From contig NC_011420.2 in the NCBI RefSeq assembly GCF_000016185.1, forward strand, positions 4,147,501-4,211,500: DNA of 64,000 nt, read 5' to 3'. Below, one piece after another: positions 8,628-13,142 of the stretch (positions within the stretch are counted from its first letter, which is position 1; the number at the start of each line of letters is the position of its first letter). The stretch is from Rhodospirillum centenum SW. Its GTDB lineage: Bacteria; Pseudomonadota; Alphaproteobacteria; Azospirillales; Azospirillaceae. A program made the position numbers and the translations under genes. A model generated the notes under the pieces. The model had not been told where the DNA came from. It did not search any database and saw only the letters and a list, made by a program, of their open reading frames with translations.

Positions 8628-9602
8628 ATGACCGCCTCCGCCGCCCCCTCCTGCCCGACCGTTGCGACCACGCCGCTGGATCCGGCGAAGTTCCGCGATC
8701 CCGCCGTGACCGCGCGGGGGGAGCGGCGCGCCTGGGTGACATTGGCGGCGTTGCGTACCCTCTGGCTCAACACCGGAACGCTCTGCAACATCGCCTGCGC
8801 CAACTGCTACATCGAATCGAGCCCGCGCAACGACGCGCTGGTTTATCTCGCCCGGGCCGAGGCGAAGGCGTACCTGGACGAGATTGCCGCGGCCGGCTGG
8901 CCGACGCGGGAGATCGGGCTGACCGGCGGCGAGCCTTTCATGAACCGTGATGTCCCCGGCATCCTGGAGGACATTCTGGACGGCGGCTTCCGTGCCCTGG
9001 TCCTGACCAACGCCATGCGGCCGATGCAGCGGCACCGGGCAGCACTCCTGCGTCTGCGCGACCGGCACGGGGCGCGGCTGTCGCTGCGGGTCTCTCTCGA
9101 CCATTACGGCCGGGCCGTGCATGAGGCGGAGCGGGGACCGGGCTCCTGGGAGCCGGCGCTGCGCGGGCTGGTCTGGCTGGCCACCAACGGTTTCGACGTC
9201 TCCGTCGCCGGGCGCGATCTCCCGGGCGAAGGAGAGGACCGGCTCCGCGCCGGCTATGCCCGGCTGTTCGCGGATCTGGGACTCGGCATCGATGCCGCCG
9301 ATCCCGCCCGCCTCGTCCTCTTCCCCGAGATGGATGCCCGCCGCGACGTGCCGGAGATCACGGAAGCCTGCTGGGGCATCCTGGGGCGGAGCCCGGACCA
9401 GATGATGTGTGCCGGCAGCCGTATGGTCGTGAAGCGCAAGGGTACGGACCGGCCGACGGTCGTCGCCTGCACCCTGCTGCCCTACGATCCGCGCTTCGAT
9501 CTCGGCCCGACGCTGGCGGGGGCACACGGGCCGGTGGCGCTCAACCATCCCCATTGCGCCAGATTCTGCGTTCTGGGCGGAGCATCGTGCAGCGCCGGCT
9601 GA
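8628..9602 (+). CDS. Radical SAM protein of unknown function
   Basis: A 324-residue protein. The 4Fe-4S binding motif CNIACANC, of the CxxxCxxC type (residues ~49-56), is followed by GLTGGEPFMN (SAM amino-group contact) and a beta-barrel order typical of radical SAM enzymes. The C-terminal third carries additional Cys residues (ITEACWG, MMCAGS, VACTLL, then HCARFCVLGGASC), suggesting a second Fe-S cluster as in SPASM/Twitch enzymes. No precursor peptide, maturase partner or transporter lies beside it, so the substrate is unknown. It is divergent from the methyltransferase at 7760-8515. Start ATG 8628 was chosen from the upstream TAC GGAAGACCGC context. Confidence 0.85.
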   Translation: MTASAAPSCPTVATTPLDPAKFRDPAVTARGERRAWVTLAALRTLWLNTGTLCNIACANCYIESSPRNDALVYLARAEAKAYLDEIAAAGWPTREIGLTGGEPFMNRDVPGILEDILDGGFRALVLTNAMRPMQRHRAALLRLRDRHGARLSLRVSLDHYGRAVHEAERGPGSWEPALRGLVWLATNGFDVSVAGRDLPGEGEDRLRAGYARLFADLGLGIDAADPARLVLFPEMDARRDVPEITEACWGILGRSPDQMMCAGSRMVVKRKGTDRPTVVACTLLPYDPRFDLGPTLAGAHGPVALNHPHCARFCVLGGASCSAG

Positions 9603-9773: not shown

Positions 9774-11180
9774 ATGAGGTCTCTCCCAGGGCTCTTGGCG
9801 ACGACAGCGGCCGCGCTCGTGCTGGCGGCGGCGCCGGCAGCGGCGCAGGGCCAGCCGAGTCAGGCACAGATCGACGCCCTCAACCGGCAGATCCAGGCTC
9901 TTCAGAGCCAGCTCGAAACCCTGCGGGAGTCCGTCGAGAAGCAGATCCAGACGGTCGACAAGCGGACCGCCGACATGCCGACCGTCACGGTGAATGCCGG
10001 GCGGCCGCGCATCGTCTCCGCCGACAAGGCGTTCGACGTGGCGCTGCGCACGCGCTTCCACATCGACTATGGCAACTGGTTCCCCGATTCCGGTATCTCC
10101 GCGGACCTGCCGGACGGCTTCAATGTCCGCCGCGCCTTCTTCGGCATCGCCGGCACGGTCTACCGCGACTGGGCCTTCGAGTTCACGCTCGACGCCTCCA
10201 GCAGCCGCGGCACCAGCACCCGTCTGCAGGCGGCGAACATCGCCTATACCGGCGTTCCGGGCTGGCGTTTCGAGATCGGCCTGATGCAGCCGCCCTTCAC
10301 GCTGGATGACGCCACGGGCTCCAACGACATCCCGTTCATCGAGCGCTCGGCCATCACCAACACGATCACCAACATCGTGGCCAGCGAAAGCCGCGCCGCG
10401 GTCGGCGTCCGCAAGACCGGCTCCAACTACATGGTGGCGGCCTATCTGACGGGCGATCAGGCGGCGATCAGCCCCGTCGGCGGCGACGACCAGCTCGCTG
10501 CCATCGGCCGGGGCGCCTTCCTGGTCCATAGCGCGCAGAACCAGGAGGTGGCGATCGGCGCCTCCGTCGGTACGGTGATCACGCCGCGCCAGGGCACCGG
10601 ACCGGGGGCGGCCCGGCCCTACCTGTTCGCCGACCGGCCGGAGAACCGGATCGGCGGCGGCACCCTGCTGGTCAGCGGCGGCACGCTGGACCTGGAAGAC
10701 TACACGGTCTGGGGTGGCGACATCGGCGCCAGCTTCAACAATTTCTGGGCCGCAGCCGAGTACTATGCCCAGGATGTCGAGACACGGGACAGCCCCGCCA
10801 CCGTGGCGGACGAAGGGGCAGACCTGAGCTTCGAGGGCTATTACGTCTCGCTGGGCTACATTCTCACGGGCGAACACCGGAAGTACAACATCGGCACGGG
10901 TGGCTGGGCCGGTGTCGTGCCGTCGGCGCCGTTCAACTCCCAGGGCGGCATCGGTGCCTGGGAACTGGCGGTCCGCTACTCCGTCAACGATCTCCAGGAC
11001 CCCGATTACGTGACGCCGCTGGAAGGCAAGCAGACGGTCTGGACCTTCGGCGTCAACTGGTACGTCAACGCGGCCATCCGCTTCATGCTGAACTACCAGA
11101 TGATCGACATCGAACGGCCGGCTCCGCTGGTGGATGCCGACGCCGACGCCATCATCGGGCGCTTGCAGTTCCAGTTCTGA
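9774..11180 (+). CDS. Phosphate-selective porin O/P family outer-membrane protein
   Basis: A 468-residue outer-membrane protein. It has a signal peptide with an Ala-rich core ending at PAAAQG, a short coiled coil (QAQIDALNRQIQALQSQLET) that may trimerise at the periplasmic face, then a beta-barrel with alternating aromatic residues finishing in IIGRLQFQF (terminal Phe). FNVRRAFFGIAGTVYRDWAF is characteristic of the OprO/OprP (Porin_O_P) family. These porins pass phosphate or polyphosphate. The upstream repeats resemble a Pho box. It is monocistronic, with a good ribosome-binding site (AGAGGAGGAAGC) and a terminator 40 bp after the stop. The anion specificity is inferred from the family. Confidence 0.85.
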   Translation: MRSLPGLLATTAAALVLAAAPAAAQGQPSQAQIDALNRQIQALQSQLETLRESVEKQIQTVDKRTADMPTVTVNAGRPRIVSADKAFDVALRTRFHIDYGNWFPDSGISADLPDGFNVRRAFFGIAGTVYRDWAFEFTLDASSSRGTSTRLQAANIAYTGVPGWRFEIGLMQPPFTLDDATGSNDIPFIERSAITNTITNIVASESRAAVGVRKTGSNYMVAAYLTGDQAAISPVGGDDQLAAIGRGAFLVHSAQNQEVAIGASVGTVITPRQGTGPGAARPYLFADRPENRIGGGTLLVSGGTLDLEDYTVWGGDIGASFNNFWAAAEYYAQDVETRDSPATVADEGADLSFEGYYVSLGYILTGEHRKYNIGTGGWAGVVPSAPFNSQGGIGAWELAVRYSVNDLQDPDYVTPLEGKQTVWTFGVNWYVNAAIRFMLNYQMIDIERPAPLVDADADAIIGRLQFQF

Positions 11181-11287: not shown

Positions 11288-11980
11288 CTACAGCAGGCGG
11301 CCTTGCCCCATCCCCATGCGGGCGGGTTCATCGCTCCTGCTCCGCCCGGCCAGCCGGTCGGCGATCCGGGCCAGGTCGTCCACGAAGCGTTCGTAGGCCG
11401 CCCGCTGCGTCTCCCGGTCCTCGATCCGCAACAATGACGACGGATGCACCGTCGCCGTGATCCAGCCCGCCAGCGGCGTGCGCAGGAACTGGCCGCGTTC
11501 CTCCGTCACCTTGAAGGTCCGGCCGATCAGGGCCTGCGCCGCCGTGGCGCCCAGGCAGACGATGCCCTCCGGTGCGATGGCGGCGATCTCGTTCTCCAGC
11601 CAGGGAAGACAGGCCAGGATCTCCAGCCGTCCGGGCTTCTCGTGCAGCCGGCGGTGGCCCCGCTGCACCCATTTGAAGTGCTTGACCGCGTTGGTGACGT
11701 AGATGCCGGTGCGGTCGATCCCGGCCGCGTTCAGGGCAAGGTCCATGAGCTGTCCTGCCGGACCGACGAAGGGGCGCCCCTGGGCGTCCTCCCGGTCGCC
11801 CGGCTGTTCCCCGACCAGCACCAGCCGCGCCCGCTCCGGCCCCTCCCCGAACACGGTCCGGGTGCCGGTCTCGTGCAGCGGACAGGCGGTGCAGCCCGCC
11901 GCGGCCTCGCGCAGGGCGGGGATGGTGCGGGCCGGCGGCAGGAAGCGGGCCGCTGTATCGGGCGGTGCGCGCGGCGGCAT
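11288..11980 (-). CDS. UdgX-type uracil-DNA glycosylase (family 4-like, Fe-S)
   Basis: A 230-residue member of the uracil-DNA glycosylase superfamily. Motif A is GEQPGDRED (57-65), with the GEQPG signature of UdgX rather than the GEAPG of family 4. Motif B is HPSSLLR (179-185). Four Cys (C30, C33, C124, C142) match the 4Fe-4S ligands of family 4/UdgX. The segment RGHRRLHEKP (107-116) corresponds to the UdgX-specific R-loop KRRIH, whose His (here H113) is known to form a covalent bond to the deoxyribose after uracil excision. The enzyme therefore probably binds uracil-containing DNA irreversibly. It is convergent with the porin gene and divergent from the SDR gene. Confidence 0.87.
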   Translation of the reverse strand: MPPRAPPDTAARFLPPARTIPALREAAAGCTACPLHETGTRTVFGEGPERARLVLVGEQPGDREDAQGRPFVGPAGQLMDLALNAAGIDRTGIYVTNAVKHFKWVQRGHRRLHEKPGRLEILACLPWLENEIAAIAPEGIVCLGATAAQALIGRTFKVTEERGQFLRTPLAGWITATVHPSSLLRIEDRETQRAAYERFVDDLARIADRLAGRSRSDEPARMGMGQGRLL

Positions 11981-12164
11981 GATCGCTTCTCCCTGACGGT
12001 TCCCGACCCGGTTGCGGACCCTTCCGGCTCAATTGCGCGAATCCGGGAAAGTTCCCGTTCCGCGGGCCGTCGTGCCGAATGACGCCGTTGCCTGTTGGGG
12101 CGCCAGGATCGGCTCCGGGGCGGGAAATGGCCCTGCGGGGCCGGAACCGGAGGAGGAGAAGGGC

Positions 12165-13142
12165 ATGCATGCAGCGCAGCGGGACGGACGCCTGGACGGT
12201 ACCACGGTGGTGATCGCGGGGGCGTCCAGCGGCATCGGGCGGGCTACCGCCCGGGCGTTCGCTGCCCAGGGCGCCCGGCTCGTGCTCGCGGCCCGGCGGC
12301 GCGACATGCTGGAGGACGCGGCGGCGGAGTGCCGGCGGGCCGGTGGGGAGGCCATCGCCGTGCCGGCGGACGTCACCAGCCCGTCCGACATGCGCCATCT
12401 GCTGGACGCGGCCACCGATCGCTTCGGCGGGGTCGATGTCTGGATCAACAATGCCGGCGTGGGTGCCGTCGGCTGGTTCGAGGATGTCCCGCTGGAGGCG
12501 CACCGCCGCACCATCGAAACCAACCTGCTGGGTCCGCTGAACGGCGCCCATGCCGTGCTGCCGCACTTCATCGACCGTGGCCGCGGCGTGCTCATCAACA
12601 CCAACTCCATCGGTGCCTGGGTCTATCCGCCCGGAGCGGTCGCCTATGCCGCCGCCAAAGCCGGCCTGCACGGCATGACCGAGGCGCTGCGCCACGAGAT
12701 GCGCCGGCATCCCGGCGTGCATGTCTGCGCGATCTATCCGTACTTCGTGGACACGCCGGGCCTTAAGCATGCCGGCAACTACACCGGCCGCACCCTGAAC
12801 CCGCGGGGACCGATGCAGTCCCCCGGGCGGATCGCGCGGCTCATGGTGGATCTCGCGGCCCACCCGCGGCGACGGGTGCCGGTGGGGCTGCCGACCCTGC
12901 TGGGGCGCGTCGCCTATGCCCTGGCGCCGGACCTCGTGGGCCGAGCCATGCTGGCGGGGGTGGAGATGGCGCTCGCCCGGGCGAGCCCGGGGCGGAACGG
13001 GTCGGGCAACCTGTTCGGCCCACCGGAGGACCGGATGGCGGTGCGGGGCGGCGGGCAGTCGCTGCTGCCCGTGGCGGTCGGCCTGGGGGCTGCGGGTCTG
13101 CTGGCGGCCGGGGCGCTGGCCGCCGGCCGGCGCGCTACCTGA
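12165..13142 (+). CDS. Short-chain dehydrogenase with C-terminal membrane anchor
   Basis: A 325-residue SDR. VIAGASSGIGRATA gives the nucleotide-binding loop, NNAG is intact, and the catalytic residues are in the TNSIG and YAAAK segments. After the ~260-residue catalytic domain come an RNG-rich linker and one hydrophobic helix (LLPVAVGLGAAGLLAAGALAAG) ending in GRRAT. That suggests a tail-anchored, membrane-associated oxidoreductase, as seen in SDRs acting on lipid or hydrophobic substrates. ATG 12165 follows a strong purine-rich AGGAGGAGAAGGGC. No operon partner is visible; substrate unknown. Confidence 0.85.
   Translation: MHAAQRDGRLDGTTVVIAGASSGIGRATARAFAAQGARLVLAARRRDMLEDAAAECRRAGGEAIAVPADVTSPSDMRHLLDAATDRFGGVDVWINNAGVGAVGWFEDVPLEAHRRTIETNLLGPLNGAHAVLPHFIDRGRGVLINTNSIGAWVYPPGAVAYAAAKAGLHGMTEALRHEMRRHPGVHVCAIYPYFVDTPGLKHAGNYTGRTLNPRGPMQSPGRIARLMVDLAAHPRRRVPVGLPTLLGRVAYALAPDLVGRAMLAGVEMALARASPGRNGSGNLFGPPEDRMAVRGGGQSLLPVAVGLGAAGLLAAGALAAGRRAT

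Follow-up and report, generated by a model that had tools for sequence, protein, structure and literature searches.

The window analysed in this study, a stretch of 64,000 nucleotides, covers positions 4,147,501-4,211,500 of the chromosome of Rhodospirillum centenum SW, a closed genome of 4,355,543 bases. The gene considered here, udgX, lies on the reverse strand between a porin gene and a gene for a short-chain oxidoreductase of the SDR type. The features of the locus are as follows, in window coordinates.

9774..11180 (+), porin gene (Porin_O_P), convergent neighbour, outside the system
11288..11980 (-), udgX coding sequence, 230 aa, ATG start; TIGR03914 / PF03167
11426..11446 (-), motif B HPSSLLR, residues 179-185, identical to HPSSLLR 178-184 of Mycobacterium smegmatis UdgX
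11609..11893 (-), span with the predicted Fe-S ligands C30, C33, H101 and C124, in columns conserved across 116 Cys-bearing UdgX
11642..11656 (-), R-loop HRRLH, residues 109-113 (R111; H113 the predicted covalent nucleophile), aligned to M. smegmatis KRRIH 105-109
11786..11812 (-), motif A GEQPGDRED, residues 57-65 (E58, Q59, D62, D65), position taken from the ORF, aligned to M. smegmatis E52, Q53, D56 and D59
12031..12055 (-), promoter-like element GGAACTTTCCCGGATTCGCGCAATT, GGAACTT-N13-CAATT, upstream of udgX, similar in 3 of 4 related loci
12168..13142 (+), SDR oxidoreductase gene (PRK06139-like), divergent and conserved neighbour

Assignment of the product to UdgX

The 230-aa protein scored 267.6 bits (E = 8.8e-80) against TIGR03914, the NCBIfam model for UdgX, whose curated cut-off is 189.95 bits. 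In the PDB, every top match was a structure of M. smegmatis UdgX, at 196 bits, whereas the highest-scoring family-4 UDG reached 111, and the protein is 50% identical to the M. smegmatis enzyme over 198 aligned residues (E about 6e-57). Orthologues with the same start occur in 4 related genomes at about 70-75% identity. Judged from its sequence, the ORF at 11288-11980 is a UdgX and a member of an established family, the chemistry and structures of which are already known.

Alignment with the characterised M. smegmatis enzyme (PDB 6ail, 6ajo, 6iod and others) showed common motifs A and B, the R and H of the R-loop, the N, K and D residues, and three Cys and one His at the Fe-S positions. All 14 positions tested (C30, C33, E58, Q59, D62, D65, N97, K100, H101, R111, H113, C124, H179 and R185) are as in M. 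smegmatis UdgX. Motif A of UdgX, i.e., GEQPG together with Q53, D56 and D59 in M. smegmatis, is found as G57 E58 Q59 P60 G61, D62 and D65, the R-loop residues R107 and H109 are found as R111 and H113, and HPSSLLR fits the family pattern of motif B, HPS(S/A)(L/V)(L/V)R. C30, C33, C124 and H101 are likely Fe-S ligands, a role assigned by alignment with family-4 UDGs. The protein differs from M. smegmatis UdgX in having HRRLH in place of KRRIH and a segment before the R-loop that is two residues shorter. Most UdgX (116 of 135) have this shorter form, with 9 residues, and the R-loop occurs in 19 spellings in the UdgX set, HRRLH among them; in these, R111 (the second R) and H113 are invariant and the first position varies. 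Neither difference gives grounds for assuming a different chemistry.

Family-4 UDGs, such as the Thermus enzyme (1ui0) and the copy at locus L001 of the same genome, share the superfamily, the fold and the GExPG of motif A with udgX, but have A for Q in motif A, no R-loop, and PPGN instead of R and H. The 15 family-4 sequences compared carry GEAPG and PPGN or PPAN without an R-loop, and none of them has the Q or the R-loop residues. The features of family 4, i.e., GE(A/G)PG, P and N in the loop and no R-loop, were not those of the udgX product, which has Q59, R111 and H113 instead. In a maximum-likelihood tree built with the Q59 and R-loop columns masked, UdgX and family 4 were split at support 100, and the protein fell within UdgX, beside its nearest orthologues from related genomes. 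Since those columns had been removed, the family label could not drive the placement.

The AF2 model of the product (mean pLDDT 84, pTM 0.82) points in the same direction, and the predicted fold is closest to the UdgX crystal structures, with TM 0.85-0.90 by target and an rmsd of about 2.4, as against an rmsd of about 3.7 for the family-4 structures (Thermus). Within the core, model confidence is lower around the R-loop and in motif A (residues 61-70), where block means are 55 to 78.

A search of the whole genome by family models and sequence patterns revealed three genes of the UDG superfamily: udgX, one family-4 gene (L001 1120-2016 (+), genome C1:3276340; 202.6 bits with TIGR00758) and one family-5-like gene. 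The last has the motif GLAPG...NRTGRPF and only weak matches to family-4 models, and was assigned by eye. Family-1 Ung, TIGR03915 and TIGR03916 were absent in the family search of the whole genome, in which the controls were detected. The family-4 UDG of this genome and all 15 family-4 sequences from the class lack at least two of the usual Fe-S ligand positions; they have F for the first Cys and W in the NxxxWRPPGN stretch, and the one at L142 lacks all of these positions.

An earlier note, made from the sequence of the window, had proposed a UdgX-type glycosylase at this ORF, and the TIGR03914 score, the tree, the diagnostic residues and the predicted fold bear this out. Its motif claims also held, including the positions of GEQPGDRED and HRRLH and the numbering of H113. 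The alignment with characterised UdgX that it proposed gave matches at every diagnostic position, the phylogeny that would have placed the protein in ordinary family 4 did not occur, and its question of a separate Udg elsewhere in the genome is answered by the family-4 and family-5-like genes.

Distribution of UdgX and a cysteine-free clade

The UdgX family is widespread but patchy. Of 289 genomes sampled from the class, 24 exceeded the UdgX cut-off, as did 47 of 82 from the family, and in a survey of species genomes at least 581 stretches, from Actinomycetota to Verrucomicrobiota, encode relatives; the published description of the distribution is "limited and scattered" (PMC10776899). Close standalone UdgX, at 73-75% identity in one of the searches, is present in 4 other genomes of the family. 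A phage origin of udgX was considered and rejected: the phage matches were below 42% identity and included annotated family-4 UDGs or DNA polymerases. A close relative was found on only one viral contig.

Among the relatives, 19 UdgX sequences form a clade in which GEQPGD and the R and H of the R-loop are intact and HPS is mostly kept, while the CxxC is gone and the third Cys is replaced by Y. The clade received a support of 100 for the 9 of its 19 members included in the tree. No Cys is present anywhere in the domain in 17 of the 19, whereas the other 116 UdgX have at least three. The members are encoded at most of the loci L020-L033 and at L039, L047, L048, L051, L156, L160 and L171; the L051 sequence may have a frameshift close to its end. 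TIGR03915 is fused in front of the domain in three members checked, and a TIGR03916 gene adjoins one. The L048 member, a protein of 224 aa, consists of the UdgX domain only and is unfused; its model still matches UdgX structures best, though less closely, with an rmsd of about 3 to 4. As the Fe-S cysteines are lacking, the usual mode of 4Fe-4S cluster binding is hardly possible for these proteins. No mention of such a clade was found in the literature searched, which misses most subscription journals. The clade, seen in relatives only, is more unusual than the udgX of this genome.

Neighbourhood and upstream region

The gene is monocistronic, with the porin gene convergent and the SDR gene divergent. 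The earlier note had described it as standing alone beside unrelated genes. This was right as far as an operon is concerned, but the divergent SDR gene adjoins udgX in all five genomes of the subgroup, including a case where udgX is on a second replicon (plasmid record), and genes for a radical SAM (rSAM) protein, a methyltransferase and an EamA protein are also found in the vicinity in three to four of the five.

Fusions of TIGR03915 and UdgX, found beside a TIGR03916 radical SAM gene, share the UdgX domain and the active-site residues with udgX, but the udgX studied here is unfused and its genome lacks both partners. The rSAM gene at 8628-9602 (+) was considered as a TIGR03916 partner and ruled out, not being TIGR03916. 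Its product is only weakly similar to the Rv1681-type model, with 88 bits where the cut-off is 380, and such a gene is also found near udgX at L034 and L037. In a survey of about 100 udgX loci, standalone UdgX had no partner that was kept outside close relatives. Only one cluster of partner genes was seen repeatedly in distant taxa, and it accompanies fused UdgX, with TIGR03916 confirmed at L047.

Upstream of udgX, GGAACTT-N13-15-CRATT is present in four of the five subgroup genomes; in one of these four, a small ORF stands between the element, which is further upstream, and udgX. The pattern GGAACTTN13-15CRATT has a single match in the 4.36 Mb genome, the one at udgX, where about 0.3 would be expected by chance according to a rough estimate from base composition. 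The element is similar to alternative-sigma promoters in their -35 part and does not match the -10 of EcfG, and it is treated here as a conserved footprint.

Two known types of control were considered and rejected. For SOS control, no GTTC-N7-GTTC or GAAC-N7-GAAC was present, with one mismatch allowed, in the 250 bases upstream of udgX, either here or in the 4 nearest orthologues. For EcfG-type general stress control, the element ends in CAATT or CGATT and not in CGTT, and it was therefore not assigned as EcfG. The genome does have GGAAC...CGTT sites close to two loci with ECF sigma genes, and the matches in a NepR search were weak and below the cut-off. The two loci, L184 1529 (+) and L183 4720 (-), have ECF-type sigma genes, weak NepR-like matches and GGAAC-N16-17-CGTT sites, one of which is upstream of a short membrane-protein ORF; they possibly represent a general stress system.

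Proposed reaction and cellular role

When uracil departs in the M. smegmatis enzyme, a bond forms between H109 and C1' of the deoxyribose; H109 is activated by E52, the loop is shaped by Q53, and R107 is held in place by D56 and D59. Each of these residues has mutational support, and when H109 is changed ordinary glycosylase activity is restored (PMC10359453, PMC10776899). UdgX activity is also reported, in work cited in PMC10359453, for Bradyrhizobium diazoefficiens, likewise an alphaproteobacterium. Since all functional residues of the M. smegmatis enzyme are present, trapping linked to H113 is the expected reaction, and by analogy covalent trapping of uracil DNA through H113 is very likely. 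By the same analogy, uracil, best in single-stranded DNA, would be flipped into the pocket, and N97, E58 and H179 would assist its departure. H113, activated by E58 and held via salt bridges of R111 with D62 and D65, would attack C1' of the deoxyribose, and the product would stay covalently bound without turnover. More tentatively, UdgX may cap uracil sites in the cell against the family-4 and family-5-like UDGs, which could prevent the free abasic sites or breaks that those two enzymes would make. Recombination or proteolysis might later clear the adduct, a proposal made in PMC10359453. Overall, the best explanation, to which a probability of about 0.93 is given, is a standalone chromosomal UdgX that would trap uracil as the M. 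smegmatis enzyme does and may, with less certainty, have the capping role.

Three other explanations were weighed against this one. It is very improbable that the product is a family-4 UDG with an incidental UdgX-like loop and plain turnover. It does pass the TIGR00758 family-4 cut-off (135 bits against 125.3), as most UdgX do, but its score with the UdgX model is twice as high, the masked tree sets it apart from family 4 at support 100, and the genome encodes its family-4 UDG in a separate gene, which has GEAPGE and no R-loop. Equally improbable is a decayed or silent UdgX, functionless in this strain. The lack of an operon and of the known partners TIGR03915 and TIGR03916 could be read in this way; on the other hand, M. 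smegmatis UdgX likewise aligns as a single UDG domain, and the catalytic residues are all intact despite an identity of only about 70-75% to the nearest relatives, as would be seen under selection.

A competent UdgX that is paired with the divergent SDR in a response to stress, and does not serve general uracil repair, is unlikely, though less so than either of the above. It would agree with the SDR beside udgX in all five genomes, the second-replicon case included, and with the element before udgX in four of five and only once in this genome. However, the neighbours are conserved inside one family, for which common descent may be explanation enough; the element does not end in CGTT, as the sites near the genome's own ECF sigma genes do, and a pattern with one match in the genome argues against a regulon. 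The more specific proposal, in which stress would control udgX and the divergent SDR as a small pair, with the udgX side under an alternative-sigma-factor promoter (GGAACTT ... CRATTG), is slightly less probable still. If it were true, uracil trapping would be a stress-time capping of damage and not routine repair.

Read as a standalone UdgX, this copy is a clean alphaproteobacterial example that leaves knowledge of the family unchanged, and its background of one family-4 UDG, one family-5-like UDG and no Ung is simple for a knockout. UdgX enzymes serve as detectors of uracil in DNA (PMC10359453, PMC8070346), and the Cys-free relatives could matter more than the udgX of this genome, both for the mechanism and as cluster-free uracil probes.
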